The notes beneath the pieces are model-generated. The model saw nothing but the letters and a program-made list of their open reading frames with translations. It was not told where the DNA came from and made no database searches. From Sphingorhabdus sp. SMR4y (GTDB lineage: Bacteria; Pseudomonadota; Alphaproteobacteria; Sphingomonadales; Sphingomonadaceae): DNA of 64,000 bases. A program made the translations under genes and the position numbers. The first letter of the stretch is position 1. Each line of letters starts with the position of its first letter. Of this stretch, positions 29,148-64,000 are shown piece after piece. The DNA lies in NCBI RefSeq assembly GCF_002218195.1, contig NZ_CP022336.1:2599001-2663000 (forward strand). Reading direction: 5' to 3'.

Positions 29148-30992
29148 TCATGTCCGCTCGCGCATATGAATGACAATTTTGCCAAATGCGCCATTGTTTG
29201 CAGCGCTATAGGCTTTTTCAGCCTCGGAGAATTCAAACTCGCTATCGATAACCGGCTTGAGATCGTGCTCTGCCATGAATTCAGACAGGGCCGCATGGTC
29301 GGCACGGCTGCCTACCATGACAGCGCTGACCCGCAAGGCAGCAAAGATCAGGGGGAGCGTGTCCAGTTCGCCACCAAAGCCGTCAAGAGCGCCGATCAAG
29401 GCAAGATGTCCGTTCAGTCCCAGCGCACCGACCGACATCGACAATGTGCCGGCACCGCCCAGTTCAACGACATGATCAACTCCCGCTCCCTTGGTCAGGT
29501 CGCGCACGGCTTCTGTCCAGTCGGGTACCTCGCGGTAATTGATGCATTCCTGCGCCCCCATCTTCTTGACCGTGGCGATTTTTTCTTCGCTGGAGGACAG
29601 CATGATCACCTTGGCACCGGATGCGACGGCAATCTGCAAGGCGAACAGAGCGACACCGCCTGTACCCAGGATCAGGACGGTATCTCCCTCTTGCAACTGA
29701 CCCAGCGTCTTCAGGGCCGACCAAGCGGTAACCCCGGCGCAAGGCAGGCAGGCGGCTTCGGCATAGGACCAGCCATCCGTAATGGGAACAATGCCGCCAG
29801 CCTGCAGAATGATGAAATCGGCAAACACGCCCGGGCCGCCCGCGCCCAGTGACGACATGACAGCCGGCAGGGTCAGCCGCCCGCCTGGATGGTTTTGAAA
29901 GAAGGCAGAGGCAACGCGGTCGCCGACGGCCCAGTCGGTCACATCACTGCCGATCGCGACGATTTCTCCTGCAGCGTCGGACAGGGGCAGGAAATCATCC
30001 GCACCATTGACCGGATAAGACAGATCCCGGACGCCGAGGTCACGGCGGTTCAGCGATACCGCATGAACTTTCACGAGCACTTCGCCTGGCCCGGGGGCAG
30101 GGATATCGCTGTCCGAGCGGACCAGATCGTAACCGCCATCGCGGGACTTGAGTGTGTAACGGCGGTTTTCGGTCATAAGATTCCTATCTTTGCAAAAATT
30201 GAGAATGGCGCGGCCAAATGCTCCCGGCTGGCGTTCTGGCGTGGCGAGGAAGGCCGGGCCGATGATGTGCACGGGGATGGCCGGATATCGCTCTCGGAAA
30301 CGCTGCAGCATGCCATTGAGAGTCAATGGATCATCAGCGGCTTGAACCGCCTGAATCCTGACGCGTCCATCAGACATGATATCATCGAGCAGCGTCTCCA
30401 GATCCTGATTGAAAATCGCATCGAAGGCCTGATCGCGGGCAGGGCCCGACTGGAGGGCACCCAATGTTTCGAGATGTACAAGTTCCGGCGAAGGATCGAG
30501 GAAGAGGCTGTCCATCAGCCGATAGGTCTTGCCAAGATACTCCCCTTTGGCATCTATGGGATCGGCATCACCAATATCCGCGCGCATCTTCCGGCGCTCT
30601 TCCGCCGGGCCCAGGAGAATGCCGGATAATGTAAGCGAGGTTATACGCTCCGGGGCCACGGCGGCCATTTCGCAGGCGAAATGCGTGCCGGTGTGATGGG
30701 CTACCAGATCGAATAGATCCACGCGAAGATCCTCCAGCGCTTCGAGAAACCACTGGCCATATTGTGCAGCTGTCGGATGCCCCTCGGGCTTGAATGACTC
30801 GCCAAAACCGGGCGTGTCCAGCGCAATCACATCATAATTTTCGCGCGCAAGGAATTGCATTAGCAATTCGAAACCCGACGAGTTCACCGGTGTCCGGTGC
30901 AGCAGCACGATGGGGCTGCCATTGCCTTCGATGCGTCGGCCATGCATCTGACCGGCCGAACATTGCGCATAGAATTTCTGTACCGGTTTCAT
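29148..30992 (-). CDS. Apparent hydrolase-fold / MDR dehydrogenase fusion (probably two genes)
   Basis: 614 aa open frame. Residues 1-270 are an alpha/beta-hydrolase fold (LLHRTP oxyanion region at 30-35) with an atypical elbow A98-H-H100-T-G102 in place of G-x-S-x-G. Residues 273-614 are a complete zinc-independent MDR dehydrogenase starting MTENRRY, with LILGTGGVALFALQIAVASGA as cofactor site. The MDR start (30176) has its own AGGAA site. Adding one T to the T5 run (plus-strand A run 30194-30198) would end the hydrolase as NFLQR-stop a few bases before that ATG. The fusion is therefore probably a 1-nt deletion or sequencing error. The two parts should be read as adjacent genes: hydrolase about 30183-30992 and dehydrogenase 29148-30176. 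Confidence 0.8.
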   Translation of the reverse strand: MKPVQKFYAQCSAGQMHGRRIEGNGSPIVLLHRTPVNSSGFELLMQFLARENYDVIALDTPGFGESFKPEGHPTAAQYGQWFLEALEDLRVDLFDLVAHHTGTHFACEMAAVAPERITSLTLSGILLGPAEERRKMRADIGDADPIDAKGEYLGKTYRLMDSLFLDPSPELVHLETLGALQSGPARDQAFDAIFNQDLETLLDDIMSDGRVRIQAVQAADDPLTLNGMLQRFRERYPAIPVHIIGPAFLATPERQPGAFGRAILNFCKDRNLMTENRRYTLKSRDGGYDLVRSDSDIPAPGPGEVLVKVHAVSLNRRDLGVRDLSYPVNGADDFLPLSDAAGEIVAIGSDVTDWAVGDRVASAFFQNHPGGRLTLPAVMSSLGAGGPGVFADFIILQAGGIVPITDGWSYAEAACLPCAGVTAWSALKTLGQLQEGDTVLILGTGGVALFALQIAVASGAKVIMLSSSEEKIATVKKMGAQECINYREVPDWTEAVRDLTKGAGVDHVVELGGAGTLSMSVGALGLNGHLALIGALDGFGGELDTLPLIFAALRVSAVMVGSRADHAALSEFMAEHDLKPVIDSEFEFSEAEKAYSAANNGAFGKIVIHMRERT

Positions 30993-33931: not shown

Positions 33932-34048
33932 TTCTATCAGTGCGCCAATAACCAAACCTATCGGGTAGAAGCTCCGACCTCCCAACCAGCGGCGTTGAGG
34001 AAATCAGGTTGCCGTATCATTCTCGCTGTTCATCAACGGAGGGTTGCA

Positions 34049-35602: not shown

Positions 35603-35607
35603 CGAAA

Positions 35608-40975: not shown

Positions 40976-41324
40976 GCGCAAGAATCAGGAGCGCACAAGC
41001 CGGTCCAAGGGCAGTCAGCCGATTGTTTTTGAAGACGAAAGGCAGGACGCGCTGGCCGGTATGGTCCTGTCGCTTCTGGGCGAGGTGATGGTTCTGAAAG
41101 ACCGTCTTGACGCGAACGAACGGATGCTGGAAGCTGCCGGCTTGCACGGTCCGGAAGATGTCGACCGTTTTACGCCCGATGCCGCCGTGAACCAGCACCG
41201 TGGAGGCTATCGGCAAGCCATATATGATCGTGTTCTGGGCAGTGCGCTGGAACGTTTGCTTCCGGACGCGCTGACGGAGCAAAAGGCCTATGACGGCGTT
41301 GTAAATGAAGTGGCATCTGACTGA
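40968..41324 (+). CDS. Small protein of unknown function
   Basis: 118 aa, charged and predicted largely helical, cytoplasmic. It includes ALAGMVLSLLGEVMVLKDRLDANERMLE as an amphipathic helix or short coiled coil. It starts 8 nt inside the AllA-like gene and ends just before the methyltransferase start, so it is firmly operonic. It is not recognised. It may be an accessory subunit of the methyltransferase or of the AllA-like protein. Confidence 0.75.
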   Translation: MVERKNQERTSRSKGSQPIVFEDERQDALAGMVLSLLGEVMVLKDRLDANERMLEAAGLHGPEDVDRFTPDAAVNQHRGGYRQAIYDRVLGSALERLLPDALTEQKAYDGVVNEVASD

Positions 41325-41349
41325 TATTATCGGCGAAAGGAAATACCCA

Positions 41350-42540
41350 ATGCAGAAACAGCTAAATCACAGCCATTTTGGCCATGAAATCATGCCGCAG
41401 GCGACCCATGATGAGCAGGCTATGGAAGATCATTTCCTGGCAATGCGGGCATGGACCAATCGCAATGTCGATCCGCTCGACCGCCGGCTGCTCGACGAGG
41501 TCATTGTGCCCGAGGTCGAGGCCGCGACCAGCAAGAAGCCGACCAGCAGCGCACATGTCCGCAAGCCACTGGAGGCCCATCCGCTGCACCAATATTGGCT
41601 CACTCTGTCGCTCCATTATCAGGATCGCATCTGGCGGTCGATCGACGGCTCCATCGCGCGCCAATATGACGAACTGGCAGAGAAGGTAGAGCAGCATAGC
41701 AAGGCGCCCATCGGTAGTCTTACACTTGACCCGGATCTTGAAATTCCGCGCTATATCGGCGAATTTGACCATCACCGGATGCCGGGCAGCTATACGGTTG
41801 ATACGGCTGAAGATGATTTCCGGGCCGGTGCGCTCTATGATCGCTTCTCCTCGACCTATTTGCGCAACATGAACGGTGGCTGGAAAAATGACGGCCGGGG
41901 GCACACGCTGGCCAGTCACATGAAGGATTTCTATCCGGATTTCCAGCCGAAGCGCATTCTCGATCTGGGCTGCTCGATCGGCCAGAGCACGGTTGCCATT
42001 GCCAGTGCCTATCCGGATGCAGAAATCCACGCGATTGATCTGGGTGCGCCGATGTTGCGCTATGGTCATGCCAGGGCCGAAGCCATGGGTGTCCCGATCC
42101 ATTTCAGCCAGCAGAATGCCGAATGCACCAATTTTGAAGATGCAAGCTTTGATCTGGTGACATCCTCCGCGATGTTCCATGAAACATCTGCCAAGGGCAT
42201 GCGCGCCATCATGCGCGAGTGCCACCGGCTGCTGCGTCCCGGCGGGATCATGTGCCATGTCGAGGTTCCACCGCGGCACGAGCATCTGTCTCTGTGGGAC
42301 CAGATGCGCTGCGACTTTGAATCGCACTATAACAACGAACCGTTCATGACCTCTCTCGCCCGGACCGACTGGGTAGAAGTTGCTGAGAAAGCAGGCTTTG
42401 AACGCGACAAGGTTCTGGTCGGCTACCGCAAGGGTGTGCCCGAACTGAAAGTCGATCGTAGCGATTTCTTCACGGAAGGGCATCCCGAAGGCCGGACTTT
42501 GCTGGGTAGCTGGTACGCCTGCTCGGCCGAAAAGACATAA
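41350..42540 (+). CDS. Class I SAM-dependent methyltransferase with long N-terminal domain
   Basis: 396 aa from the ATG at 41350 (AAGGAA 9 nt upstream). Residues 1-195 are a helical region without recognised motif. The Rossmann methyltransferase domain then has ILDLGCSIGQST (motif I), the acidic residue in HAIDLG, and FDLVTSSAMFHE. Closest in style to Methyltransf_11/25 proteins. It is the last gene before a 16-bp hairpin, so it probably ends the hydantoin-type transcript. The methyl acceptor is unknown. Confidence 0.85.
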   Translation: MQKQLNHSHFGHEIMPQATHDEQAMEDHFLAMRAWTNRNVDPLDRRLLDEVIVPEVEAATSKKPTSSAHVRKPLEAHPLHQYWLTLSLHYQDRIWRSIDGSIARQYDELAEKVEQHSKAPIGSLTLDPDLEIPRYIGEFDHHRMPGSYTVDTAEDDFRAGALYDRFSSTYLRNMNGGWKNDGRGHTLASHMKDFYPDFQPKRILDLGCSIGQSTVAIASAYPDAEIHAIDLGAPMLRYGHARAEAMGVPIHFSQQNAECTNFEDASFDLVTSSAMFHETSAKGMRAIMRECHRLLRPGGIMCHVEVPPRHEHLSLWDQMRCDFESHYNNEPFMTSLARTDWVEVAEKAGFERDKVLVGYRKGVPELKVDRSDFFTEGHPEGRTLLGSWYACSAEKT

Positions 42541-44193: not shown

Positions 44194-45570
44194 TCAGGGT
44201 CGCTTCACATCCGGATAGCGTCCGCCGATCTTGTAGAAGCTGATGCATATCGCGTTGCAGGCGAAGAAGAACACCGGCAGAATCGTGAAGCAGAAATACA
44301 GCGCGTTGACCGCGGATTCCGGCTGTTCCACAATCTCGCCACCGGTGGTTGGCAGATAATTGGAAAAGCTCAGATAGGCACCGACCGCCGCCACACCGAG
44401 CGCGAAAGTGGTCTTCTCGATAATGGCGATCACACTGGAGAGCAGGCCTTCCCGTCGCAATCCCGTGACTTCGCGGTCATAGGCCAGGCTGTCGACGAAC
44501 ATGGAAATCGAGAGCAGGATCATGCCGCCGGAACCAAGGCCGCTGATGACTCCGCGCCAGATAATCCCCCAGGTGGTAATCGAACTGTCGGTCGTCAGCC
44601 AGCTCAGTGAGCCGATCGCCATCATCAACAGCCCGATGATATAGGCATTGCGCTTGCCAAGCCGGCGTTCCATCCACAGCCAGAGGGGCATTGACACTGC
44701 GGTGGCGATATTTTGCGCCAGCGCAAGCTGCATCTGCCCGGTATAACCGATCAACAGGACGTTCAGCTTGAACAGCAGGCCGGTCGTGGCGAGGCTGGCG
44801 AAGGCGAGGAACTGGAATATCTTGGCTGCAACAATCGCGACGAACGGCTTGTTGCGATAAATCTGCTTCAGCGAGTCCCAGCTGATTGCAGGTTCCGGTT
44901 CTTTTGATGCCTCGATATGCGGAGCCTTGGCCGTCCCCAGAAAGGATGCGAACATCGCGGAGCCAATAACCAGCGCCATGACCCAGCCCATGATCATATA
45001 ACCATTGGCATCGGCGCCTCCCCAGGAGATCAGGGCCGCTGTTCCGGCCATGGCCAGGATCTGGCCGAGCGACACGAAGAGCGTCCGGAAAGACAATAGT
45101 CGGGAGCGCTGGTATTTTGACCCCGTCATCTCTGACGGCATGGCCATATAAGGCACATTGAAAAGCGAATAGCCGGTCGAATAAAGGATCAGTGCCAGAA
45201 ACATGTACAGCGAGATATAGTCGTCATCCATCGCCGGCGGCGAGAAGATGGCGAGAAAAGACAGCGCCGAAACGAGCGCGCCGGCGAGCAGATAGGGCCG
45301 GCGTCTGCCCCATTTCGACCGTGTCTTGTCGCTCATCGAGCCAATGACAAAATCGGCGACGGCATCATATAGCTTTGACGCCATCAGCAGATAGCCCGCG
45401 ATTTCCGCATCCTTGCCCAATACCGTGGTCATGAACGCCGGGAAATAGGTGGTGACACCGTTCAACATGATCGACACGCCGACCGTGCCCACGCCGAAGC
45501 CCAGGCACACGCTCATTGGCAATTTCGGGTCCGACGTGCCGTCCGGGTTGATATGTGGCTGGTTGCTCAT
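44194..45570 (-). CDS. GPH-type (MelB-like) symporter 2
   Basis: 458 aa, about 12 transmembrane helices. It has VADFVIGSMSDKTRSKWGRRRPY, the canonical GPH loop 2-3 signature, and NVPYMAMPSEMT in the following helix pair. It is convergent with GPH symporter 1 and is the only gene in its transcription unit. It is more canonical in the loop signature than the other two GPH proteins in the window. The substrate is unknown. Confidence 0.9.
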   Translation of the reverse strand: MSNQPHINPDGTSDPKLPMSVCLGFGVGTVGVSIMLNGVTTYFPAFMTTVLGKDAEIAGYLLMASKLYDAVADFVIGSMSDKTRSKWGRRRPYLLAGALVSALSFLAIFSPPAMDDDYISLYMFLALILYSTGYSLFNVPYMAMPSEMTGSKYQRSRLLSFRTLFVSLGQILAMAGTAALISWGGADANGYMIMGWVMALVIGSAMFASFLGTAKAPHIEASKEPEPAISWDSLKQIYRNKPFVAIVAAKIFQFLAFASLATTGLLFKLNVLLIGYTGQMQLALAQNIATAVSMPLWLWMERRLGKRNAYIIGLLMMAIGSLSWLTTDSSITTWGIIWRGVISGLGSGGMILLSISMFVDSLAYDREVTGLRREGLLSSVIAIIEKTTFALGVAAVGAYLSFSNYLPTTGGEIVEQPESAVNALYFCFTILPVFFFACNAICISFYKIGGRYPDVKRP

Positions 45571-46011: not shown

Positions 46012-47379
46012 TCAGTTCTGATCGACGAGCGCCGGATCCAGTAAAAGAGCGGTCTCTGTTTTCGCCAGACGGGCTCTTGTCATCCCGCGCCATGCAACCG
46101 CGTAGAGAATCGAGCCAATCAGCAGGCTGGGAATGGCGACAATGGCGATCGACCAGCCAACCAGTTCGGGATCACCGAGTATATGTTCGGTGACCGAAGC
46201 GATCAGCAAGGGGCCGCATGCCGCACCGATCATGGTGTTGAGGATCAGGGTCAGGGAAATGGAACTGCCCCGCATTTGCGGAGGCACGATGGCCTGCAAC
46301 GTCGCAAACATGACCGTCCCGACCACAGAGAAGATGGCTGCGCTAGAGGCAACCAGCAGGGCGGCCATATAGACATCCTCGAGCATCACGGCGAGCGCGG
46401 AAGGGATGGCCAGCAAAGGGACGAAGGTGAGAATAGCGAATCGCGCCATTATCTTGCCCGACTTCATCGACCGATCGAGCAAAATTCCGCCGAGCAGCGG
46501 TCCGATTGCGGCAAAACCGATAGAAAACGGTCCAAGCCATGCGCCGAGAAAGGCCGGAGAGGCGCCAAAAGCGCGCATCAGCATGGCCGGTGCCCAGGCA
46601 CCCGCGCCATAGGCGACGAGGAAGATGATTGCGAAACCAAAGTAGAGTGGCAGCAATACGCCCCGGTTGCGCCAGAAAAATTGGGCTTCTGCGACACCGG
46701 GCAGCGCTGCCTTCACCGGTTTGACTGCAGTCGCATTATGACGCCGTGGTTCGCGTGTCGTCGCCAGACCCATCGCCACGAGCAGTCCGACTGCTCCGCA
46801 GATGACAAAGGTGGTGCGCCACGGAGTCATGGTTCCGATAATGGGAATTCCTGCAAATCCGCCGGCAATCGCAACGCTGATGATGATGCCGGTGACAGAA
46901 ATTGCGATCCCGTTAGCGAGCCCCTGACCCATCATGTAAACGCTGATCGGGCGACCGCGTTTTTCCGGCGGGAACATGTCGGCGATCAACGAGATCGCGC
47001 AGGGGCCCAAGGCGGCTTCGCCAAGCCCGACCATCAAGCGGGCGGCAAATAATTCGCCAAAGCTGGTGGCATAGCCGCTCGCGATGGTGGCCAGACTCCA
47101 GATGGAAATACCGGCAATCAGCAAGCGCTTGCGCGACGTGCGATCGGCCAGCAGCCCCATCGGCAAGCCCATGAACGCATAGAACACCCCGAAGGCCAGG
47201 CCCTGCAACAGCCCGATCTGGACATCGGTGATGCCAAGATCCAGCCGGATCGGGTCCACCACGATATTGAGGATCGCCCGGTCAATGACGGAAAAAATGC
47301 CTGCCAGGAAAAGCAGGCTGACCATCCACCAGGCGCTACTAGCGCGCGGCCATGTCGAAGCGGGTGCAGCAGCGGTCAC
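46012..47379 (-). CDS. MFS transporter (spinster-like)
   Basis: 455 aa, 12 transmembrane helices. The start region FSVIDRAILNIVVDPIRLDLGI and loop 2-3 GLLADRTSRKRLL are typical of the spinster-like MFS branch common in sphingomonads. The ATG overlaps the upstream phosphotransferase stop by 4 nt. It is the last gene of a four-gene minus-strand operon. Direction of transport and substrate are unknown. Confidence 0.9.
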   Translation of the reverse strand: MTAAAPASTWPRASSAWWMVSLLFLAGIFSVIDRAILNIVVDPIRLDLGITDVQIGLLQGLAFGVFYAFMGLPMGLLADRTSRKRLLIAGISIWSLATIASGYATSFGELFAARLMVGLGEAALGPCAISLIADMFPPEKRGRPISVYMMGQGLANGIAISVTGIIISVAIAGGFAGIPIIGTMTPWRTTFVICGAVGLLVAMGLATTREPRRHNATAVKPVKAALPGVAEAQFFWRNRGVLLPLYFGFAIIFLVAYGAGAWAPAMLMRAFGASPAFLGAWLGPFSIGFAAIGPLLGGILLDRSMKSGKIMARFAILTFVPLLAIPSALAVMLEDVYMAALLVASSAAIFSVVGTVMFATLQAIVPPQMRGSSISLTLILNTMIGAACGPLLIASVTEHILGDPELVGWSIAIVAIPSLLIGSILYAVAWRGMTRARLAKTETALLLDPALVDQN

Positions 47380-48389
47380 AGCAGGCCTGCATCGCGCGCG
47401 CGGGTCTTGATATAGTCTCCGAGCCAGTCGAGATTACGGAAGCGCAATGTGCCGCGTCCGACCGATACCGAACTGTGAGCCATACCGGCGACAAGACGGA
47501 ATGCTTTGGCCATCATGAACAATTCACCGTTTTCGATTTCCAGCGGAGTGAACGGACGGACTGACTGATAACCGGCTTCGAACGCTTCGCCATAAGCAGG
47601 CGAGAAATCATAGAAGAGATTGCCCCAGACATAATTTTTGACATCCTGCATCAGGAAATCTTCGCCAGCGGCGTCAAAATCGAGGAATGTGATCGTGCCT
47701 TTATCGTCGACATGGACATTGCTCGGGTGGAAATCGCGATGGCAGATGCCCATCGGCACGCCAGCATCGGCCAGTTCCTGCAGTCTTTTGTCGAGGGCCG
47801 ATGCAATGATCGGGTAGTCCCGGAGATCGTCGGGCCGATCATAGACGAAATCGAGCAATGCGGGCAGGCAGATATTATAGTCGCGGGCCGTGTCGGGCGT
47901 GAATTTATGGCCGGGCCCGGCATGCTCGATTCCCAGCAGATGCATTTTTGCAAATTGCGCGCCAATCTGTGCGGCCGTATCCTCGCTCAGCATGTCGCCG
48001 AATTTCTTGCCCGGTGCCCAGTCGTACAGCGCAAGGGCCCGGTCACCTTCCGGTGAGGAGGCCTTGAAATAGAGACTGCCGTCATGTTGCGGTACCGCGA
48101 CCGAAGCAGGAAATTCACGATCTTTCAGAAAGGCGAGAAAATCGAGTTCATAGGCAACGTCATCCACGTCGCGATAGGTCTTGCGCCACACGCGCAACGC
48201 ATATTTTGTTTTTGCGTCCTGCACCAGATATACATCGTTCATCCCGCGATAGAGGAGCCACGCCTCGACCTTGCCCGAGACAGGATAACGCGCGGCCACC
48301 TCGCGGGCAATGAAGTCGGGGTGGACAACCGAGTGTGAAATCTGGGCGACCGGCAGATCGGAATCAATCGAAGAAGAGGCGAAGTTCAT
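47376..48389 (-). CDS. Aminoglycoside-phosphotransferase-fold kinase
   Basis: 337 aa, APH/choline-kinase/SrkA-like fold. The N-lobe has YLVQDAKTKYALRVWRK (ATP lysine region). The Brenner catalytic loop is CHRDFHPSNV, and the metal-binding acid is in FLDFDAAG. It phosphorylates a small hydroxyl-bearing molecule or a protein Ser/Thr. Between a hydrolase-fold gene (26-nt overlap) and an MFS gene (4-nt overlap), so it acts with both. A homoserine-kinase-II-like or detoxifying role are alternatives. Confidence 0.85.
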   Translation of the reverse strand: MNFASSSIDSDLPVAQISHSVVHPDFIAREVAARYPVSGKVEAWLLYRGMNDVYLVQDAKTKYALRVWRKTYRDVDDVAYELDFLAFLKDREFPASVAVPQHDGSLYFKASSPEGDRALALYDWAPGKKFGDMLSEDTAAQIGAQFAKMHLLGIEHAGPGHKFTPDTARDYNICLPALLDFVYDRPDDLRDYPIIASALDKRLQELADAGVPMGICHRDFHPSNVHVDDKGTITFLDFDAAGEDFLMQDVKNYVWGNLFYDFSPAYGEAFEAGYQSVRPFTPLEIENGELFMMAKAFRLVAGMAHSSVSVGRGTLRFRNLDWLGDYIKTRARDAGLL

Positions 48390-49167
48390 TGGCTATTCTT
48401 TCCTGTGCAAATTCAAAAATATCTCGGTTCAGATCCGGCATGTGACGTATGGTGATGCCGGGGATGAGTGCGGCCGCTTCGAGCGACGCTTCACGCAATT
48501 GTTCGTCGGGCTGTAGCAGCAGCGCTGGCAAAGTCAGCCCGGTTATTCGTGTATAGTCATAGGACCAGACACCGCGATAGGCCCAGCTGGACCGGTCCAG
48601 CATCCAGGCCTTGTCGGCGAACGACCGGATTGCCCGTTCGAGCGGTACGCGCCGGTCGCGCTGGCCAACGACATAGTCCCACAAGCGTGGCAGCATCGAC
48701 AATATCGCTGTGCCGGCATCGTCATTGGCCGGTGTCTCGACCACATTTTTCAATAACTCGGCGCGTTTTTCCTCGGGATACATCGGGATGCCGGTCATTG
48801 CGATGCGCGCAACCTTGTCGCCCCGCAGTAGCGCCAGTTCCATGGTCAGCAGTGCGCCGGTATGAAAGCCGTAAACATCAACCGGACCGGCGATGGCGAG
48901 CGCGTCGATGGCATCGGAAAAGCTTGCCGCATAGCCGGCCATATCGAGCGGCGCCGGCGGAGGATCGGACATGCCATAGCCCGGGGTATCGAATGCGATG
49001 ACCCGGCGGTCTGTTGCCAGAGCATCGATCAACAGTTCATATTCGTAGGAAGAAGAAGGATTCTGGTGCAGCAGGATCACTGTCGGTGCTGTCGGATTTT
49101 CCGGCGCGGCCTCGCGGTAGTGCATCTGGCCATACCGGCATTGTGTATAGGCGCGGGTCACCATCAT
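48364..49167 (-). CDS. Alpha/beta-hydrolase-fold protein with His in the nucleophile elbow
   Basis: 267 aa. LLHQNPSSS (32-40) is the oxyanion region and DTPGYGMSDPP (60-70) a usual loop, but the elbow reads G100-F-H102-T-G104 in place of G-x-S-x-G. The C-terminal catalytic histidine position also appears lost (LNRDIFEF where a GH-x motif is usual). It is probably not a normal serine hydrolase. Two other window proteins share the H-T-G elbow. Overlaps its neighbours on both sides in a four-gene operon. Confidence 0.85.
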   Translation of the reverse strand: MMVTRAYTQCRYGQMHYREAAPENPTAPTVILLHQNPSSSYEYELLIDALATDRRVIAFDTPGYGMSDPPPAPLDMAGYAASFSDAIDALAIAGPVDVYGFHTGALLTMELALLRGDKVARIAMTGIPMYPEEKRAELLKNVVETPANDDAGTAILSMLPRLWDYVVGQRDRRVPLERAIRSFADKAWMLDRSSWAYRGVWSYDYTRITGLTLPALLLQPDEQLREASLEAAALIPGITIRHMPDLNRDIFEFAQERIANELRLFFD

Positions 49168-50516: not shown

Positions 50517-53105
50517 TTAGAATTTAAAGCCGGCCTTGATCCCGACGGTACGCAACTCGGGCAGACCAAGGTTCAGATATCCATAAGGACCGGTCAGGGA
50601 GAAGTCCGGTGTCAGCAATGAATTCTGCGCGATCGAAGTATATTGCTTGTTGTTGAGAAGGTTCTTGGCAAAAACTTCCAGCGTCAGATCGCCTCTGGTG
50701 AAACCGATCCGGCCGTTGACTACAGCTCTGCCCTTGATCCAGGTCAGGTTTGCAGCATCTACAAATTGCTTGGATTTGTAGTTTACGTCAGACCGGATGA
50801 ACCAGCCACCATTGTCCCAATTTTCAATGTCACCGAAAAACTCGATACCTACCGAACCCGAGTATTTGGATGTCAGAGCCAGCTGATTGCCTTCGAAACC
50901 ATCGTCGATGACACCGGTCAGCAAGGAGATGGACGGATCCGCGAAGCTCTGGATGGAGCTGTCATTGATCGCGCCTGCTGCGGTGATGTTGACGCCTTCG
51001 ACCGGGCTGGCAACAACATCAAGTTCGACACCCCAGAGATTCACATCGCCGGTATTGGCAACGCCGTTGATGATCTGTGGCAGGGAGGTCGTTGGGTCAA
51101 TGAAGATGGCTGACCGCAGGTTGTACTGGTCTGTCCAGTCGGCCTTGTAGACTGCCAGGCTGCCGCGAAGCAGGCCATTGAAGAACGAACCCTTGAGGCC
51201 GACTTCATAGTTGGTCAGCTTTTCTGGTTTCGTCAAAACGCCCAGTCCGATGCCGGCGGCCGCCGCTACTTCGCCCGCCGAACCGGTGAAGAAAGAGGTG
51301 TTGAACGAAGTGATGCTAACGTTCGCGGCTTTGGCCCATGACGCATAAATCATGACATCCGGATTGATGTCATAGTTGATGATCACGCGGGGCTGGAAGT
51401 TGTTGAACGTCTCGGAGTAGAAGGATTCCAGCGGTGCAAATGTTCCCGATGGCAATCCGAAGCTGTTGTTCGCAGCGATGGTCAGCGGCGTAGCACCGGC
51501 ATAAGCAAAAATCTCATCCTGCTGGTAGCGGCCTTCGGCACTGATCGTCAGGCTGTCGGTAACTTCGTAGCTGAGACTGCCGAATACGCTCTTGGTGACC
51601 GATTTGCCAGGCGCCTTGAGGCTATTGCCACTGCGCGGTGCAGAAAATTGCTCCTCGCCGTAGATGCTGACAAGGTCATTTTTGGTGATAGCTTTCAGAT
51701 AGCTGACGCCAAGCATCGCCTGCAGCGGGCCGCCATTGTCGTAGGATGCACGGAATTCCTGCGAGAAATCCTCGTTTTCCCGCTCAACAAGGAACGGGAA
51801 GCTGAATTCTGCACGGGCACCCGGGATACCAGCGCCCGGATTGTCGAGCGAAGTGCTGTCATAATTGTCGAGATCGGCCAACTGGCTATAAATTTCGTAG
51901 TTATAGCCGGTCAACGACGACAGCGTGATACCGGTATCACCAATTTCATAATCGATCGTCATGTTCAGGTGGTAATATTTGCGTTTCAAGCCATAGCCTT
52001 CGACACCTTCACCCGGAGAGGTGACGCGCGCGGTATAATCGTTCAGGCGGTCCGCAAGCTGGCCGTCTTCCACGGTATTCTGCGCAGGGCTGAAGCCGGC
52101 TGGCAGGCCTGGCGCAGCACCGCAGATATAAGGACGGACGACTCGGGATTCAGTGGCACTGACACCTGCCGTGTAGCCGTTGAGGTTACAGTTCGAGCTG
52201 CTGGGAACAATCACTGTGCCGTTTGTGGTGCCGGAATTAAAAGGAATATTCAGCGCGCCATTGTCGGACCGTATTTCATAGGCGGACAACATGCCCTGGG
52301 CCGACGGACCATCATCATCTTCGGAATAGAGGCCGAAAGTGCTGATCTTCAGGCTGTCGGACGGCGTGAATTCGAGCTGGAGCGTGCCGGTGCGGGTCTG
52401 CTGATCGCCCAGGGTTTCAGACGGGTTGGCCTGGTTGGTATAGGAGCCGTCCGTTTTCCAGCCGCGACCGGTTGCCCGGAAGCCCAGAACGTCTTCGATA
52501 ATAGGGCCTTCCAGCGACAGCGACAGATCATAGCTGTTGCGGGTGCCGGCTGAGGCACTGACCGAGCCGCCAAAATAGTCGGCGGGCGCTTTGGTCACGA
52601 CATTGACGGCACCGGCGAAGGTGTTCCGTCCGAAATAGGCCGATTGCGGTCCTTTCAAAATCTCGATTCGTGCTGGATCGGTCACTGCGTTGACAGCCGT
52701 GGCAGATGCAACGGGAACGCCGTTGATGAAGGTCGCAGTCAGCGTCGACGTAGTGGTCGATGGTGTGAACCCGCGCAGCGAAATCTGCTGGAACGAGCGG
52801 TCGTTTCGACCAGAGTTCACGTTGTTCACGTTAATGCCTGGCGTGTTTTCCACCAGATCATTGATCGATGTGATGCCCTTGGCTTCGATCGTCTCGCTCG
52901 TCATCGCGGTAATTGCGATTGGCGTCTTCAGCAGATTTTCTTCACGCTTACGTGCCGTAACCACGATAACGCCCGGAGCTGCTTCGGCTTCGGCTTCTGT
53001 TTCCTGTGCATGAGCTGCGCCAGTTGGCAAAGCCAAGCTGGTGGTCGCCGCAGCAATTGCTACTAGTGAGCAACTTAATTTGCTCGTCATTGTAAGATAT
53101 TTCAT
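50517..53105 (-). CDS. TonB-dependent outer-membrane receptor
   Basis: 862 aa from the ATG at 53105 (GGAAGGG upstream). A signal peptide ends near AHAQ. The TonB box region is GVIVVTARKREE, the plug has PARIEILKGPQSAYFGRNTFAG, and the barrel ends in AGFKF. It is the longest receptor in the window. It is transcribed alone (terminator at 50464-50494), divergent from the GPH symporter 3 operon. The ligand is unknown. Confidence 0.94.
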   Translation of the reverse strand: MKYLTMTSKLSCSLVAIAAATTSLALPTGAAHAQETEAEAEAAPGVIVVTARKREENLLKTPIAITAMTSETIEAKGITSINDLVENTPGINVNNVNSGRNDRSFQQISLRGFTPSTTTSTLTATFINGVPVASATAVNAVTDPARIEILKGPQSAYFGRNTFAGAVNVVTKAPADYFGGSVSASAGTRNSYDLSLSLEGPIIEDVLGFRATGRGWKTDGSYTNQANPSETLGDQQTRTGTLQLEFTPSDSLKISTFGLYSEDDDGPSAQGMLSAYEIRSDNGALNIPFNSGTTNGTVIVPSSSNCNLNGYTAGVSATESRVVRPYICGAAPGLPAGFSPAQNTVEDGQLADRLNDYTARVTSPGEGVEGYGLKRKYYHLNMTIDYEIGDTGITLSSLTGYNYEIYSQLADLDNYDSTSLDNPGAGIPGARAEFSFPFLVERENEDFSQEFRASYDNGGPLQAMLGVSYLKAITKNDLVSIYGEEQFSAPRSGNSLKAPGKSVTKSVFGSLSYEVTDSLTISAEGRYQQDEIFAYAGATPLTIAANNSFGLPSGTFAPLESFYSETFNNFQPRVIINYDINPDVMIYASWAKAANVSITSFNTSFFTGSAGEVAAAAGIGLGVLTKPEKLTNYEVGLKGSFFNGLLRGSLAVYKADWTDQYNLRSAIFIDPTTSLPQIINGVANTGDVNLWGVELDVVASPVEGVNITAAGAINDSSIQSFADPSISLLTGVIDDGFEGNQLALTSKYSGSVGIEFFGDIENWDNGGWFIRSDVNYKSKQFVDAANLTWIKGRAVVNGRIGFTRGDLTLEVFAKNLLNNKQYTSIAQNSLLTPDFSLTGPYGYLNLGLPELRTVGIKAGFKF

Positions 53106-53167
53106 AATTCGAACCCTTCCGGATATTTTCAAGTCCTGTGCCGGGACCTGCTGGATTTAAAAGTGCA

Positions 53168-54786: not shown

Positions 54787-55810
54787 ACCGATAGGCCTCG
54801 CCCTGGTGGGCTGTGGCAGAATCAGCGCCGCCCATCTTTCTGCCGTTGCCGAGCTCGATCCCGCCTTCCGGCTTGTCGTGACCGTCGATCCGGATCTGAC
54901 TGCAGCGCAAGCGGCTGCCGAACCATTTGGTGCAAGCGCTTTTGCCGATGTTCCCAAAGCGCTGGCCCAGCCAGGCATTGATGCGGTGCTGATAGCAAGC
55001 CCCAATGGCATGCATTTCGAGCAGGCTCGCATGGCTATCGCGGCCGGCAAACATGTGCTGGTCGAAAAACCGCTTGCCGAGACCGGCGCGCAGGCATTGC
55101 AGCTTAGTGAAGCGGCCGCTGCAGCCGGTGTAATACTGGCTGCAGGGCATACATTCCGGCACGGGGCGGCGGTCCGGACTTTGATGGAGCGATTGCCAGA
55201 TTTCGGGAAACTGCTCTCGATAGAAGTCAGCCAATGTGTTTTCTGGGATGGACCGCAAGCCCCCTGGTGGGCGGAGCGGACGCCGGAAGACGGCCTGATT
55301 CTATCGCTATTTGCGCCTCATGCGCTTGATTTTGTCCAGCTCGTCATGGGTGCCGCAGATCCGTTGCGCATGCATGTCGAAGCGGCGCGACACCAGACCG
55401 GGTGGCAGGCGGAAGACGAGGCTATGATGTTGTTCGCCTATCCGGACCGGAAGATGGCCACCGTACACATATCTTACAACCAGCCGCATGTTCATGATCG
55501 CAAGACGCTTTTCTTCGACAAGGGGGTCGTTGTGATTGAAGATGGCGAGCTGCTGCGCTGGAATGGCGAATCGCTTGTCGAGCCAGCAGCGGGTGTCTTG
55601 ACCGATAGCAGCAAGATGGGCGGTCGCGATCTGTCCCATTATTTCAGCGCCCAGCTATCGGAATTTGCCAAAGCCGTGAGAGGCGAGTCGCATTGCTGCC
55701 CGACGGGGCACGACTCGGCGCGGCTGATCGAATTGCTGGACCGCGTGCGCGAGCAGGCCCTGCTCAATAGCGGTGATGCGATCAGAGCCCAATCGGAGGA
55801 GAAAAACTGA
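54776..55810 (+). CDS. Gfo/Idh/MocA family NAD(P)-dependent oxidoreductase
   Basis: 344 aa from the ATG at 54776 (11-nt overlap with the transporter). The N-terminal Rossmann motif is LALVGCGRISAAHL, with the E-K-P signature in VLVEKPLAE near residue 95, then a C-terminal alpha/beta dimerisation domain. Enzymes of this family oxidise polyols, inositols or sugar derivatives, or reduce biliverdin-like compounds. Coupling to a GPH transporter fits a sugar- or cyclitol-like substrate. Confidence 0.88.
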   Translation: MKTEPIGLALVGCGRISAAHLSAVAELDPAFRLVVTVDPDLTAAQAAAEPFGASAFADVPKALAQPGIDAVLIASPNGMHFEQARMAIAAGKHVLVEKPLAETGAQALQLSEAAAAAGVILAAGHTFRHGAAVRTLMERLPDFGKLLSIEVSQCVFWDGPQAPWWAERTPEDGLILSLFAPHALDFVQLVMGAADPLRMHVEAARHQTGWQAEDEAMMLFAYPDRKMATVHISYNQPHVHDRKTLFFDKGVVVIEDGELLRWNGESLVEPAAGVLTDSSKMGGRDLSHYFSAQLSEFAKAVRGESHCCPTGHDSARLIELLDRVREQALLNSGDAIRAQSEEKN

Positions 55811-58956: not shown

Positions 58957-59814
58957 CTATATCCGGTCGATATTCCGATCCAGAAAGGCGGTCATCGCCG
59001 AGGCCTTGTGTCCCGGGCCGGGCGCGATGCTGGCAACCTCGCCGCAGGGCAGCAGCTCCAGAGCTGTTTCGACGGCGGCCTTCAGTGTCGGGAGTTCGCC
59101 ATCGGGCTTGAGCAGAAGTGTAGGGGCGTTCAGCTGTGGCATCCGTTCAAACGCCCGATAGTTGAAAGCCGCCAGATAGGGTTTGGAATAGCTGTCGAGC
59201 GCCTTCAGCACGTCCAGCGTGATCCGGTGCAATATTGCCGGCGGCGGCATTGGAACTGATAAGCGGTTTTCCGGAACTTTCAGGAAATGGGGAAAATATA
59301 GCGCCTGATCCCGGCAGAAGTTGAAGGCCCAGATCAGATGGCGGCCATATTCATCCGGCTCCACTTTCGGCGCATAATTGGCGACAATCTGCTCGCGCAG
59401 TTCGTCCTCATATTCGGTAATACCGTCGAGCATTATCGCGCCGCTGTTTTGCGGAAAGGCGACCCCGAATTCACAGGCAATTCTGGCGCCGGTGTGAGTG
59501 CCATATATATGGGCCTTGTCGAGTCCCAGCCCGGCCATCATCCGCTTTATGGAATCTGCGAAATAGGGAATGTCCGGTGTCTCGGGCGCCGGCACATCGG
59601 AGTCGCCGTTGCCCAGCGTATCCGGTGCGATAATCGAACCGCGAAATCCGGCTCCGGCCAATTCCCGCATCATGTCCTGCATGAACCACGATGATGCGGG
59701 CGATGCATGAAGCAGGATGATTGGAACGATATCCTCGTCCCCTTTCAGGATTCGCAAGTGAATTTGCCCTTCGTCAAGTTCCACGAATGCACGGCTGATT
59801 TTCTGTTCTGTCAT
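58957..59814 (-). CDS. Alpha/beta-hydrolase-fold protein with GTHTG elbow
   Basis: 285 aa. The oxyanion region is LLHASPASS (34-42). The elbow is G105-T-H107-T-G109, with His at the usual nucleophile position. Unlike the two related window proteins it keeps a C-terminal G-H (PGPGHKAS). The annotation as hydrolase is therefore structural only. Divergent from the M24 gene, convergent with the NCS1 permease 14 nt away. Confidence 0.85.
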   Translation of the reverse strand: MTEQKISRAFVELDEGQIHLRILKGDEDIVPIILLHASPASSWFMQDMMRELAGAGFRGSIIAPDTLGNGDSDVPAPETPDIPYFADSIKRMMAGLGLDKAHIYGTHTGARIACEFGVAFPQNSGAIMLDGITEYEDELREQIVANYAPKVEPDEYGRHLIWAFNFCRDQALYFPHFLKVPENRLSVPMPPPAILHRITLDVLKALDSYSKPYLAAFNYRAFERMPQLNAPTLLLKPDGELPTLKAAVETALELLPCGEVASIAPGPGHKASAMTAFLDRNIDRI

Positions 59815-59913: not shown

Positions 59914-61224
59914 GTGCGACATCGGGGCATGCCAAAATCGTTTCCGTCCGAAGATGCTTCCTTGCTCCGTGCCCTCGAAGGCCGCGGTCCGATGAACATG
60001 GAGCGCGCGTTGCAAGTGATGGATGTTCACGGGCTGGACGGGATTGTTGTCGGTGCGCCGGAAAATGTCTTTCACATGACCGGACATTGGCCGCAGATTG
60101 CGCGCACGCGCATCGGTCAGCCGCCGGGAACGTTCGCACTGCTGACCCGGCGGGATATCGAGCATCTTGGTCTGGTAACCAGCAGTTTTCTCTATTTTTA
60201 CACTTGGTCCGATGGCCGTACGCGCGAAGACGTAGAGCCGTGGCTCTACAATGGGCTGGGGGATGATGGCGATTTCAGCCCGGCGCCCCGCTACGATTTC
60301 TGTGCTGACCGGCAGGATGTGCCGCTAAGTGCGCTCGAGAGCCACCGCCGTGCGGTACTGGACACCGGGCTGGCGCAACGCCAGAGTTTTCATGATGCCG
60401 GCGCGGCGCTGGCAAGCGCCATGCAAGACATGGGTTTGTGGAAAGGGCGCATCGGTTTCGATGACCCGGTCATCCAGGAAGTTGCCAGCCGGCACGATAT
60501 GCCGGGCGATCTGGTCCAGGCTGACAATATCCTGCGGGAAATCCGGCTGGTTAAATCGTCGCTGGAAATCGCCTTGATGGGCCGTGCGGCAGAGGCCAAT
60601 GTCCATGCCCTGAACGCCGTCGGCGCGGCGGTCCGAGCCGGAGCCACCCACCGTGACCTGCAGGCGCTGTATCTTGCAGAGACGGCGGCGCGGGGAAACA
60701 AGGCTGTCTTCCTTAATGTCGATCGGGTCTCTTCCGAACTGTCCGGGGAAACCATCGCGGACGGCCAGGCTCTGTTCCTCGACGGCGTCAGCCATTTCAT
60801 GAATTATCATGGCGACTTTGCACGCACGGTGTTTGTCGGAGAGCCCTGCGCATCTGCGCGTCGGGCGGCGGAAGCCTCCGCGTTTGGCTGGTCCGCCATC
60901 CGCGAAAAACTGCGGCCCGGTCTCCGCTATTCCGAGATCGTGGCAATGGGGCAGGAAGCTGTCAGCAAAAAAGGCTATGGAGTCACGATCGGCTTTGGCC
61001 CGCACAGCGTCGGACTGGCTCACACGGACGAGCCCGGAGAGCTGGCTGGCGGCTTCTACCGCAAGCCCGATATCATTCTCGAGCCCGGCATGATTATCAG
61101 CGTCGATTGCCCTGTCCTCGATACGGGGATTGGCGGCTCTGCCCATTGTGAAGACCTGATGCTGATCACGGCAGACGGTGCCGAACCCATCCATTCCTTA
61201 CACGAACCGGTGATAATCATATGA
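59914..61224 (+). CDS. M24 (prolidase/creatinase-fold) peptidase homolog
   Basis: 436 aa from GTG 59914 (431 aa from ATG 59929). The N-terminal creatinase domain precedes the pita-bread domain. Metal ligands can be traced: D in LFLDG, D in HGDFARTV, H in GPHSVGL and E in HCEDLML. The fourth position (usually E in a T-I-E-P motif) reads V-D-C-P, a conservative E-to-D change. It may be a peptidase, a creatinase-like amidinohydrolase or an ectoine-hydrolase-like enzyme. The stop overlaps the first luciferase-like gene (ATGA). Confidence 0.82.
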   Translation: MRHRGMPKSFPSEDASLLRALEGRGPMNMERALQVMDVHGLDGIVVGAPENVFHMTGHWPQIARTRIGQPPGTFALLTRRDIEHLGLVTSSFLYFYTWSDGRTREDVEPWLYNGLGDDGDFSPAPRYDFCADRQDVPLSALESHRRAVLDTGLAQRQSFHDAGAALASAMQDMGLWKGRIGFDDPVIQEVASRHDMPGDLVQADNILREIRLVKSSLEIALMGRAAEANVHALNAVGAAVRAGATHRDLQALYLAETAARGNKAVFLNVDRVSSELSGETIADGQALFLDGVSHFMNYHGDFARTVFVGEPCASARRAAEASAFGWSAIREKLRPGLRYSEIVAMGQEAVSKKGYGVTIGFGPHSVGLAHTDEPGELAGGFYRKPDIILEPGMIISVDCPVLDTGIGGSAHCEDLMLITADGAEPIHSLHEPVIII

Positions 61225-62060
61225 ACAGACATTTTATACTATCGGCTACGATCGCGCAGCCGGAGCTCAACAACCCGGCGTGGGCCGACAGCGTGTTGAA
61301 CGGAGCAGACCGCGCCGGGATTGACCTCGCCGTGCTGGGGGCACCCGGTTCCCTGCCGTTTGATCCCATGGTGATAGCTGCATGGGCGGCACCGATGACC
61401 CAGCGGATCGGGCTTGTCCCCTGCGTGTCGACGGCTGTGGCACATCCTTTCCACTCGGCGCGGTCGCTGTCGGCGATCGACTTTCTGTCGTCCGGACGGG
61501 CAGCATGGAACCCGATAGCGGGAGCGGGGCACGACAATATAGTGGCTGCGGACATGGTATCTGCGGCCCGCAGTTTGTGGGACGGCTGGGCCAGTGATGC
61601 GCTGATTATAGACAAGGAAAGCGGTCGGTATCTGGACGGCTCCAAAGTGCGGCTCAGCAACTACGAAGGCCCGCATTTCAAAGTAAGGGGGCCGCTGAAC
61701 GCTGCCCGTCCCTTGCAGGGGCATCCATTGCTGGTCGCTGACGCTTCCGCGCCATTTGATGTCGCGGGCACCGACCTTGTGATCCTGGAGGAAGGACAGG
61801 CCGCATTGCCAGGCTCCAACTGCCTGAAGCGAGCCGGAAACAGTCCCGACCTGGCAGCACTGGTTGCTGAATTCGAAGCGGGCGAGATTGCCGGAGTGCA
61901 CTGGACACTTACTAATCCGGGCGATGATCTCCGGGAGATTGCAGAATTCTCTTCGGCGCTTTCCCGTTTCCGGCAGGCGCGGGAAACCGGCAGCACATTG
62001 CGCGAGAGACTAGGCCTCCCCCTCTCTGACAACCTGATTTCCGAAGGAGCGTTCGCATGA
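61221..62060 (+). CDS. Short luciferase-like (LLM) flavin-dependent protein
   Basis: 279 aa. LLM features in the first half are GADRAGIDLAVLG, RIGLVPCVST and LDFLSSGRA-type SAIDFLSSGRAAWN. The second half is shorter than in typical LLM monooxygenases of 330-450 aa. It overlaps neighbours by 4 nt on both sides. It may act with the full-length LLM enzyme next to it, or be a reduced paralog. Confidence 0.78.
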   Translation: MNRHFILSATIAQPELNNPAWADSVLNGADRAGIDLAVLGAPGSLPFDPMVIAAWAAPMTQRIGLVPCVSTAVAHPFHSARSLSAIDFLSSGRAAWNPIAGAGHDNIVAADMVSAARSLWDGWASDALIIDKESGRYLDGSKVRLSNYEGPHFKVRGPLNAARPLQGHPLLVADASAPFDVAGTDLVILEEGQAALPGSNCLKRAGNSPDLAALVAEFEAGEIAGVHWTLTNPGDDLREIAEFSSALSRFRQARETGSTLRERLGLPLSDNLISEGAFA

Positions 62061-63325
62061 CCAAACAGATACATTTATGGGCATTTCTTCAGGGCATCGG
62101 CCATTATCCGAGCGGATGGCGTCATGCTGATGCGACACCCGAGGCGGTCTTCAGCATGGATTATTACAAATCTGTCGGTCAGCTGGCCGAGCGCGGACGG
62201 TTTGATTCGATCGTTTTTGGCGATCAATTGCAGTCGCGCGGCGCAAACGGTCACACACCGGAACGCGTTGCCATCCCGACGCTCGATCCGATAGCGCTTC
62301 TGGCCGCGATGGGGGCGGTTACCGAACATATCGGGCTGGTCGCCACTGTCTCGACCACCTATTTCGAGCCGGAGGCGGTGGCAGAACGCTTTGCGACGCT
62401 GGACCGGATCACTGGTGGCCGTGCGGGCTGGAATATCGTGACCACCGCGCACCCGGCTTCGGCCTGGAATTTTGGCCAGGACGAGATGCCGGAGAAATCG
62501 TCCCGCTATGCCCGCGCCCATGAATTTGTCGAAGCGGCCTGCGAACTTTGGGACAGTGCAGAAACCGATGGCAATGCCGTACCGGTGCAATATCGCGGCC
62601 AGCATATCACGATGGACGCTACAATGCCCGGGCCTGCTCTGCCGCAAGGCCGCCCTATTCTGGTGCAGGCGGGACAATCACCCGACGGTCGCGCCTTCGC
62701 GGCAGCGACTGCGGAAGCGATCTTCTGCCCTGCTCCGACGAAAGAGGACGGCATCGCTTTCCGCAACGACATGCACGAGCGTATTGCCGCCGCAGGACGC
62801 GATCCGGAAGCGGTCAAGATCATGCCGGGACTGTCATTCATTCTCGCGGATTCAGAAGAGGAAGCGATTGCCAAGGACGAAGCCATACTCGATCTGGCAG
62901 ATGAAGCCTTGTGTATTGAATATCTAGGCGAATCGATCGGCTTCTGGTTGGGCGGCCATGATCCGAAGGAGCCGATTCCGTTCGACGATATCGTGGCCGG
63001 AACAGAATTCCCCGTTGCCGATATCACCCGCATGCTCGAAAAACCGGCGGCAAGCGGCATTGCGCTTGGCGAATTTGCTTCCCGCCATGTGCGGACTCCG
63101 CGCGGTCACACCGTGTTCCGGGGGACGCCGCAGCAGCTCGCCGACCGGATGATTGACTGGATCGATTCCGGTGCCTGTGACGGCTTCACCCTGCAACCGG
63201 CCTATATGCCCGGAGAGCTGGAAATCTTTGTCGATCAGGTTGTGCCCTTGTTGCAAAAAGCAGGCCGCTTGCGGCTCGACTATCCCGGACCGACGTTGCG
63301 CGATACGATGGGAATTGCGGCATGA
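62057..63325 (+). CDS. NtaA/SnaA/DszA-family FMNH2-dependent monooxygenase
   Basis: 422 aa LLM-class monooxygenase. Features are the N-terminal WAFLQGIGHYPSGWR, RFDSIVFGDQL, LDRITGGRAGWNIVTT, and PVLVQAGQS-type RPILVQAGQSPDGR. The family oxidises nitrilotriacetate, pristinamycin, dibenzothiophene sulfone and similar compounds, using reduced flavin from a separate reductase. No flavin reductase is in the window, so it must be downstream or elsewhere. Coupled to the short LLM gene (ATGA). Confidence 0.9.
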   Translation: MTKQIHLWAFLQGIGHYPSGWRHADATPEAVFSMDYYKSVGQLAERGRFDSIVFGDQLQSRGANGHTPERVAIPTLDPIALLAAMGAVTEHIGLVATVSTTYFEPEAVAERFATLDRITGGRAGWNIVTTAHPASAWNFGQDEMPEKSSRYARAHEFVEAACELWDSAETDGNAVPVQYRGQHITMDATMPGPALPQGRPILVQAGQSPDGRAFAAATAEAIFCPAPTKEDGIAFRNDMHERIAAAGRDPEAVKIMPGLSFILADSEEEAIAKDEAILDLADEALCIEYLGESIGFWLGGHDPKEPIPFDDIVAGTEFPVADITRMLEKPAASGIALGEFASRHVRTPRGHTVFRGTPQQLADRMIDWIDSGACDGFTLQPAYMPGELEIFVDQVVPLLQKAGRLRLDYPGPTLRDTMGIAA

Positions 63326-64000
63326 CCGGCCTGCGCCGGATTGGCGTAGCCCTTGCGTTGCTTCTGCTGGTTGCTGGCGGCCTCGTCCTGTCGATGCGGC
63401 TGGGGGCCTGGAACACGGAGCGCGCGGCCGTGACGGAAAAATGGGGCCAGGGCCCGTCGAAATTCACCTCGGTCGACGATGTCCCGATCCATTATCGGGA
63501 TGAAGGCGAGGGGCCTGTGGTAGTGCTCTTGCATGGCAGCATTTTGAACCTGCACGAATGGGATGCCGTAGCCGATCGGCTGAAGGGACGGTTCAGGGTT
63601 ATCCGGTTCGACTGGCCGCCTTATGGACTGTCCGGGCCGGACCCCAAGGGTGTCTACACGACTGCTCGAGCGGCAGAGTTGATGAACGGCTTGCTGAAGC
63701 AGATGGGAATCGAGAAATTCGCGCTGGTCTCGACGTCCAACGGGGCCAATGTGGCGCTGGAATATAACCGCCAATATCCTGGCAACGCGTCTGTCATGGC
63801 CTTTTCCGTATTGCCGCTCGAGCGGCCGAGCCAGGACCGCGAAATCGACTGGCGTTTGCGGATAATGCTGCCCTTCCACAAACATCTTGTGCCGAACTGG
63901 CATCCGCATCTGTTCTACCGGCTGATCCTGGAAGACACGACTCCGGACAGCTTCAAGCCGACGGCAACCATGGTTGATCAAATGTACGATATGAACAACC
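63322..64000 (+). CDS. Alpha/beta hydrolase, cut by the window end
   Basis: First 226 aa of an open frame that continues past 64000. The N-terminus has a membrane anchor or signal segment (residues 6-25). The oxyanion motif is LLHGS (69-73). The elbow is S137-T-S139-N-G141, so a serine nucleophile is present but the first glycine of G-x-S-x-G is serine. The start overlaps the LLM stop by 4 nt, making it the fourth or later gene of the M24-LLM-LLM-hydrolase unit. Confidence 0.85.
   Translation, partial: MTGLRRIGVALALLLLVAGGLVLSMRLGAWNTERAAVTEKWGQGPSKFTSVDDVPIHYRDEGEGPVVVLLHGSILNLHEWDAVADRLKGRFRVIRFDWPPYGLSGPDPKGVYTTARAAELMNGLLKQMGIEKFALVSTSNGANVALEYNRQYPGNASVMAFSVLPLERPSQDREIDWRLRIMLPFHKHLVPNWHPHLFYRLILEDTTPDSFKPTATMVDQMYDMNN

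Follow-up and report, generated by a model that had tools for sequence, protein, structure and literature searches.

The window, that is, the whole stretch of 64,000 nucleotides of Sphingorhabdus sp. SMR4y analysed here, contains three minus-strand genes for proteins of the alpha/beta-hydrolase fold in which histidine occupies the elbow position of the catalytic nucleophile. In the translated open reading frames (ORFs) the elbows read GFHTG, AHHTG and GTHTG, and the proteins are referred to by their first positions, 48364, 30183 and 58957, respectively. An initial annotation had pointed to these three His-Thr-Gly elbows and to a shared GQ[MI]H, and both were borne out, GQMH lying near the N-terminus of the 48364 and 30183 proteins and GQIH near that of the 58957 protein. 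The alpha/beta-hydrolase layout read at the same time agreed with the Pfam matches, all three proteins exceeding the cut-offs for Abhydrolase_1 and Abhydrolase_6, and with AlphaFold2 models of the 48364 and 58957 proteins; no curated NCBIfam cut-off was passed by any of the three. Two other hydrolases of the window, described as keeping their serine and used as controls, did so (GWSLG at 25974 and STSNG at 63322).

The histidine elbow as a family trait

Whole-protein searches without any motif requirement were performed on 249 genomes of the same taxonomic family, at most 9-10 candidates being scored per genome. Matches at E values up to 1e-25 were found for the three proteins in at least 17, at least 17 and at least 4 of these genomes, the own genome included. 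At least six of 398 genomes were positive in another scan, with six candidates scored in each. When 49 distinct members were kept at E values up to 1e-20 against a profile built from the three window proteins, the elbow residue was histidine in 48 and alanine in one (L042). Conservation across homologues, for which the initial annotation had proposed to search, was supported.

A second collection came from a scan with two peptide patterns in which each species was represented by one genome. Of the 310 pattern matches, 281 were confirmed as relatives, and the 80 best loci were fetched, 29 of which (L054-L082) hold orthologues of the 48364 protein. Since one of the two patterns contains HTG, these loci are biased to the motif, unlike the whole-protein searches. 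As an unbiased test, the 255 domains that a family profile recognised in all the loci fetched up to that stage were scored with a second profile lacking the elbow columns. The His-elbow domains (n = 182/182) reached at least 141 bits, whereas no Ser-elbow domain exceeded 112 bits, the top Ser score coming from the second half of a di-domain protein. Histidine was present in 157/157 domains at 200 bits or more, in 21/24 at 150-200 bits and in 4/7 at 120-150 bits, the non-His elbows at 120-200 bits being Gln, Asn, Tyr or Ala. A chance occurrence of the motif in Ser proteins was rejected on this separation. The own genome carries six members (158-305 bits), three of them outside the window with the elbow GFHSG, and its next relative, of Ser type, scored 77 bits.

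In a quick maximum-likelihood tree (148 rows, elbow columns included) the His domains and their degenerate partner domains formed one clade, with a support of 92 in the Shimodaira-Hasegawa-like approximate likelihood ratio test, and separate losses of the serine were rejected accordingly. The window proteins fell in three deep branches of this clade, 30183 on a long one. By elbow-independent similarity (masked profile and tree) together with the His elbow itself, all three belong to one conserved alpha/beta-hydrolase-fold family, G-x-H-[ST]-G. Plasmid matches from Streptomyces, Mycolicibacterium and Rhizobium were rejected as members, those opened having an Asp elbow.

Three relatives have alanine in place of the elbow histidine (GAATG in L042, GNATG in L083 and GRATG in L151). 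Tandem di-domain His-elbow proteins of about 500-585 residues were seen in L098, L103, L104, L107, L113, L121, L127, L132 and other loci, and the motif was lost in the second domain of the di-domain members L096, L104, L113, L133, L136 and L146. The 30183 domain is joined in frame to a dehydrogenase domain, which may represent a true fusion or the loss of a stop codon; its closest relatives (L051-L053, 35-37% identity) are unfused, as their frames have only 280-298 residues.

Elbow, acid site and C-terminal histidine

The AlphaFold2 models of the 48364 and 58957 proteins (mean predicted local distance difference test scores of 96.5 and 95.3) had the alpha/beta core of the superfamily, and His102 and His107, respectively, lay at the nucleophile position between strand beta5 and helix alphaC, where no other Ser, Asp or Cys was found. 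The initial annotation had proposed such modelling, and the histidine does sit on the elbow in the two of the three proteins for which models were inspected. In the 48364 model Thr103 is the first residue of helix alphaC, and Glu222 lies just past the strand formed by residues 215-220, where Ser hydrolases carry their acid after beta7.

Column conservation was assessed on 121 His domains filtered at 70% identity; these rows were chosen for the elbow histidine, so that its 100% frequency there is uninformative. The strongest columns otherwise include His34, His16, Trp163, Ser67, Thr103 and Asp60, together with the elbow glycines and those in the turn past strand 4. Of the 182 His-elbow domains, 174 carry Thr at position 103 and the other 8 carry Ser. 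Histidine is also common at column 154 (75/121), at column 197 (37/121) and, in many members, after strand beta8; the 48364 protein, to which family members are mostly 22-34% identical, has Ala154, Tyr197 and an Arg in the C-terminal loop.

At the aligned position of the C-terminal catalytic histidine, the 29 rows of the 48364 group have Arg (n = 25), Lys (n = 3) or Asp (n = 1) and never His, although in one of them (L073) the preceding residue is His; every one of the 29 keeps Glu222. Among the 21 rows of the 58957 group, Glu240 is invariant, and Lys236 and Lys270 are each present in 20 rows, while His269 occurs in the 58957 protein alone, within the last helix and beside Lys270. As the aligned position is non-His in the 48364 group, and His269 of the 58957 group is helical and found in 1/21 rows, the catalytic histidine has been lost in both. 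The two groups share the elbow His, the acid-site Glu and, close to where the old base stood, a basic residue. The initial annotation had read the C-terminal His as missing from two proteins out of three; the loss holds for 48364 and 58957, each with its group, and for the 30183 domain, which has no close orthologue, the only sign pointing to a loss is a short C-terminus. Across the family, a loose pattern found the C-terminal His in 44/121 domains and a slightly wider one in 52/121, indicating that other branches keep it and that, by those patterns, over half of the domains do not have it.

The gene set around the 48364 and 58957 proteins

For part of the neighbour counts below, including the comparison set of 50 loci, genes were called with a simple script and neighbours clustered at 35% identity. 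The 48364 relatives of the 29 orthologue loci (47-63% identity) come mostly from Novosphingobium, the other hosts being Sphingomonas, Croceicoccus, Azospirillum, Niveispirillum, Nitrospirillum and unnamed bins. In 20 of these loci a 58957 relative, an M24 protein, both luciferase-like proteins and a GPH-type transporter were found in the same stretch; the other nine had no such block within the DNA fetched. The window carries this gene set as two blocks about 10 kb apart (Table 1). Because orthologues of both share one gene set in 20/29 loci, it is very likely that the 48364 and 58957 proteins work in a single pathway, and the initial placing of each HTG protein in a different unit was mistaken for these two. 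The catabolic look of the surroundings, in turn, was borne out.

Table 1. His-elbow proteins of the window and the genes conserved around their orthologues
Feature	Positions	Strand	Evidence or distribution	Sites and remarks
His-elbow protein 1 (P0001, 267 aa, GFHTG)	48364..49167	-	Sequence, AlphaFold2 model, 29 group rows	His102 codon 48862-48864; Glu222 acid site; Arg248-Asp249 in the usual catalytic-His loop
His-elbow protein 2 (P0003, 285 aa, GTHTG)	58957..59814	-	Sequence, AlphaFold2 model, 21 group rows	His107 codon 59494-59496; Lys236 and Glu240 near acid site; Lys270 conserved
614-aa ORF: His-elbow domain P0002 (AHHTG, 30183-30992) and zinc-type dehydrogenase domain	29148..30992	-	In-frame fusion	His100 codon 30693-30695; short C-terminus; rear dehydrogenase PF08240 and PF00107
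APH-family kinase-like protein	47376..48389	-	Homologue in 26/29 loci	Overlaps 3' end of protein 1
MFS transporter	46012..47379	-	Homologue in 26/29 loci	
MFS_2 (GPH-type) transporter	44194..45570	-	Homologue in 20/29 loci	
TonB-dependent receptor	50517..53132	-	Homologue in 16/29 loci	Named by reading the sequence, not by Pfam
M24-family protein	59914..61224	+	Homologue in 20/29 loci	Relatives: prolidase, ectoine hydrolase, creatinase
Small luciferase-like protein	61221..62060	+	Homologue in 20/29 loci	PF00296 over residues 29-112 of 314 only
NtaA/DmoA-family flavin monooxygenase	62057..63325	+	Homologue in 20/29 loci	TIGR03860 above cut-off
Ser-elbow (STSNG) alpha/beta hydrolase	63322..63999	+	Ser-type relative in 26/29 loci	Runs beyond window end
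Ureidoglycolate-lyase-family protein	40397-40975	+	Relatives in 15/29 loci	
Small unnamed protein	40968-41321	+	Relatives in 16/29 loci	
Methyltransferase-like protein	41305-42540	+	Relatives in 28/29 loci	

The small luciferase-like protein, which covers just the front of PF00296 and adjoins a full-length NtaA/DmoA relative in 20 loci, is perhaps a degenerate partner subunit. A methyltransferase-like protein that has a long N-terminal part stands together with a small protein in the window, in L137 (6386-7992) and in L141 (13269-14704); the small partner from L076, when scanned, matched no Pfam family.

A comparison set of 50 loci from other branches (L083-L133 without the short L117) had luciferase-like genes in 15 and M24 genes in 12, so that these partners recur elsewhere in a minority of loci; 21 of the 50 carried at least two His-elbow genes, and 12 a di-domain protein. 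In four plasmid loci hand-picked from 165 matches, LeuCD-like subunits lie beside His-elbow genes, accompanied in L136, L144 and L146 (the fourth being L147) by NodB/PuuE-type deacetylases and isochorismatases. Deacetylase genes occurred in 5/29 orthologue loci and 3/50 others, isochorismatase genes in 9/29 and 3/50. In the own genome, three of the five matches to PF01522 are no more than about 4 kb from a His-elbow gene, one of the three to PF00857 adjoins such a gene (the other two are 11 and 14 kb or more away), and two of the four to PF00296 are the luciferase-like pair of the window. Intermediates of the cyclic amide, imide or maleamate type are no more than a lead, and literature searches on the pathway found no fitting description.

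Elsewhere in the window, HyuA-like, DUF917-like and Asp/Glu-racemase-like genes, named by reading their sequences, stand in a row at 33995-37454, hinting at possible cyclic-amide catabolism in the same island. A sulfatase-modifying-factor-like gene at 55810-56634, most similar to PvdO but at 206.7 bits below the cut-off of 500, adjoins a Gfo/Idh/MocA oxidoreductase.

Known systems and possible chemistry

Sequence searches of the PDB matched 131, 78 and 440 distinct sequences, and among the best 60 of each no solved or characterised His-elbow protein was found; structures were also compared with Foldseek (best 50 of 1893 rows) and VIA-align (best 50 entries of 1000 chains). The earlier remark that no characterised member was known is matched by the absence of one from the database matches listed. 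The Ser hydrolases 3-oxoadipate enol-lactonase and aryl esterase (PDB 2xua and 1va4), at 16-17% identity, have a Ser elbow instead of His, and the 48364 and 58957 groups differ from them further by having no C-terminal His at the usual place. The third-best profile match among those listed (E = 1.2e-22) was alpha-(N-acetylaminomethylene)succinic acid hydrolase (PDB 3kxp), which attacks a ring-opened N-heterocycle during the degradation of vitamin B6 and differs from the His-elbow proteins in its Ser nucleophile and full triad. Haloalkane dehalogenases, epoxide hydrolases and fluoroacetate dehalogenases gave the best single-sequence matches of the 48364 protein within the best 60, and its LLHxNPxSS loop resembles the LHGNPTSS loop of that branch; the branch has an Asp nucleophile, however, and the score of 44.6 bits falls far below the family cut-off of 241. 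Histidine likewise stands where dienelactone hydrolases have Cys in all three window proteins.

A 2024 survey of the superfamily lists Ser, Asp and Cys elbows, together with Ser-less carboxy-lyases and CGI-58 (PMC11878206, section 2.7), calls the C-terminal His totally conserved, and makes no mention of a His elbow in the parts consulted. A full-text search for the motif found no alpha/beta hydrolase carrying it among 20 of the 22 matching papers, as judged by titles and the beginnings of abstracts, and keyword searches of the openly licensed literature (elbow His, nucleophilic His) gave no described case. The closest mechanistic parallels are the cofactor-free dioxygenase HOD and the tomato decarboxylase MKS1, which, according to the cited text, share the fold and work without a nucleophile by means of a His base (PMC10548524). 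In HOD the elbow is Ser, or Ala in some relatives, a change that the Ala-elbow relatives L042, L083 and L151 recall, whereas here the elbow itself is His. The HOD base, a His after beta8, is gone in the 48364 and 58957 groups; this would weaken the case for membership of the HOD type but not the mechanistic analogy.

A classical Ser-type mechanism at the elbow itself is excluded by these observations, and classical covalent ester hydrolysis is unlikely in view of the loss of both nucleophile and C-terminal His; general-base hydrolysis is possible. We tentatively favour, at just short of an even chance, a reading in which the elbow His and an acid form a general-base pair in nucleophile-free catabolic enzymes, with the 48364 and 58957 proteins acting in one pathway. 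The elbow imidazole would act as the base beside the oxyanion hole, paired with the acid past strand beta7, for which much of the family has Asp and the two window groups have Glu222 and Glu240, and the neighbouring hydroxyl of Thr/Ser103 could serve as a hydrogen-bond partner that helps to hold the substrate. Such a base might activate water or take a proton from the substrate, leading to C-N or C-C cleavage or to decarboxylation, and the substrates would be intermediates that the flavin monooxygenase encoded in this gene set generates. A base placed on the elbow and paired with an acid would explain how the C-terminal His could be lost.

Several observations weigh against this general-base proposal. 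The base of HOD sits after strand beta8 rather than at the elbow, and the cited text does not place the His of MKS1 (PMC10548524). The existence of Ala-elbow proteins indicates that not all relatives need the His. Some branches (L002, L024) have no acid, and the 48364 group also has an Asp at the next column, 223, in 16/29 rows, so that it is unsure which acid matters. The motif-less second domains of di-domain members would also suit a binding or structural role, and most of the other-branch loci do not have the luciferase-like and M24 partners.

Among the alternatives, covalent catalysis, in which the elbow His would attack the substrate to form an acyl-, carbamoyl- or alkyl-His that water then cleaves, agrees with the position of this residue in the two models and with its conservation throughout the family; we consider it unlikely, as in the 48364 and 58957 groups the usual place no longer holds a C-terminal His that could activate water in the second half-reaction and the literature searches described above gave no precedent. 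We likewise give only a small chance to a non-catalytic role, as substrate-binding, chaperone or partner subunits of a pathway complex, which would fit the loci with two or more such genes, the tandem di-domains and the degeneration of some second domains; His, Thr and acid are nevertheless conserved among proteins of such low identity, and without exception in the 48364 group, which is unusual for pseudoenzymes. An ordinary hydrolase with Thr/Ser103 as nucleophile and His102 as its base, to which the strict retention of a hydroxyl at 103 would point, appears less probable again, since this residue opens helix alphaC in the model and the residue after the nucleophile is normally part of the oxyanion hole, according to the part of the survey consulted (PMC11878206). 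Least probable is an HOD-like oxygenase working without a cofactor, or a metal enzyme using His102 with other common histidines (column 154 and the C-terminal one), for although His is common in many members at columns 154 and 197 and after beta8, and HOD shows oxygenation to be possible on this fold (PMC10548524, cited text), the residues of the 48364 protein at these places mean that no such His cluster is common to the family.

The general-base proposal would extend to the family as a new catalytic class of alpha/beta hydrolases, in which the elbow nucleophile has been permanently replaced by a Glu/Asp-paired general-base His, working without a nucleophile in several catabolic pathways of Pseudomonadota, partly as neighbouring pairs or tandem di-domains; to this wider claim we attach slightly more doubt. 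A His elbow combined with a partial absence of the C-terminal His fits none of the categories in the cited sections of the survey (PMC11878206). The fold is known, and the catalytic class would count as new were activity to depend on His102. Should the proteins be active, they would represent a catalytic arrangement new to one of the most common enzyme folds, and the conserved gene set would offer a direct route to the substrate. The replacement of Ser by His suggests unusual chemistry in nutrient-breakdown pathways.
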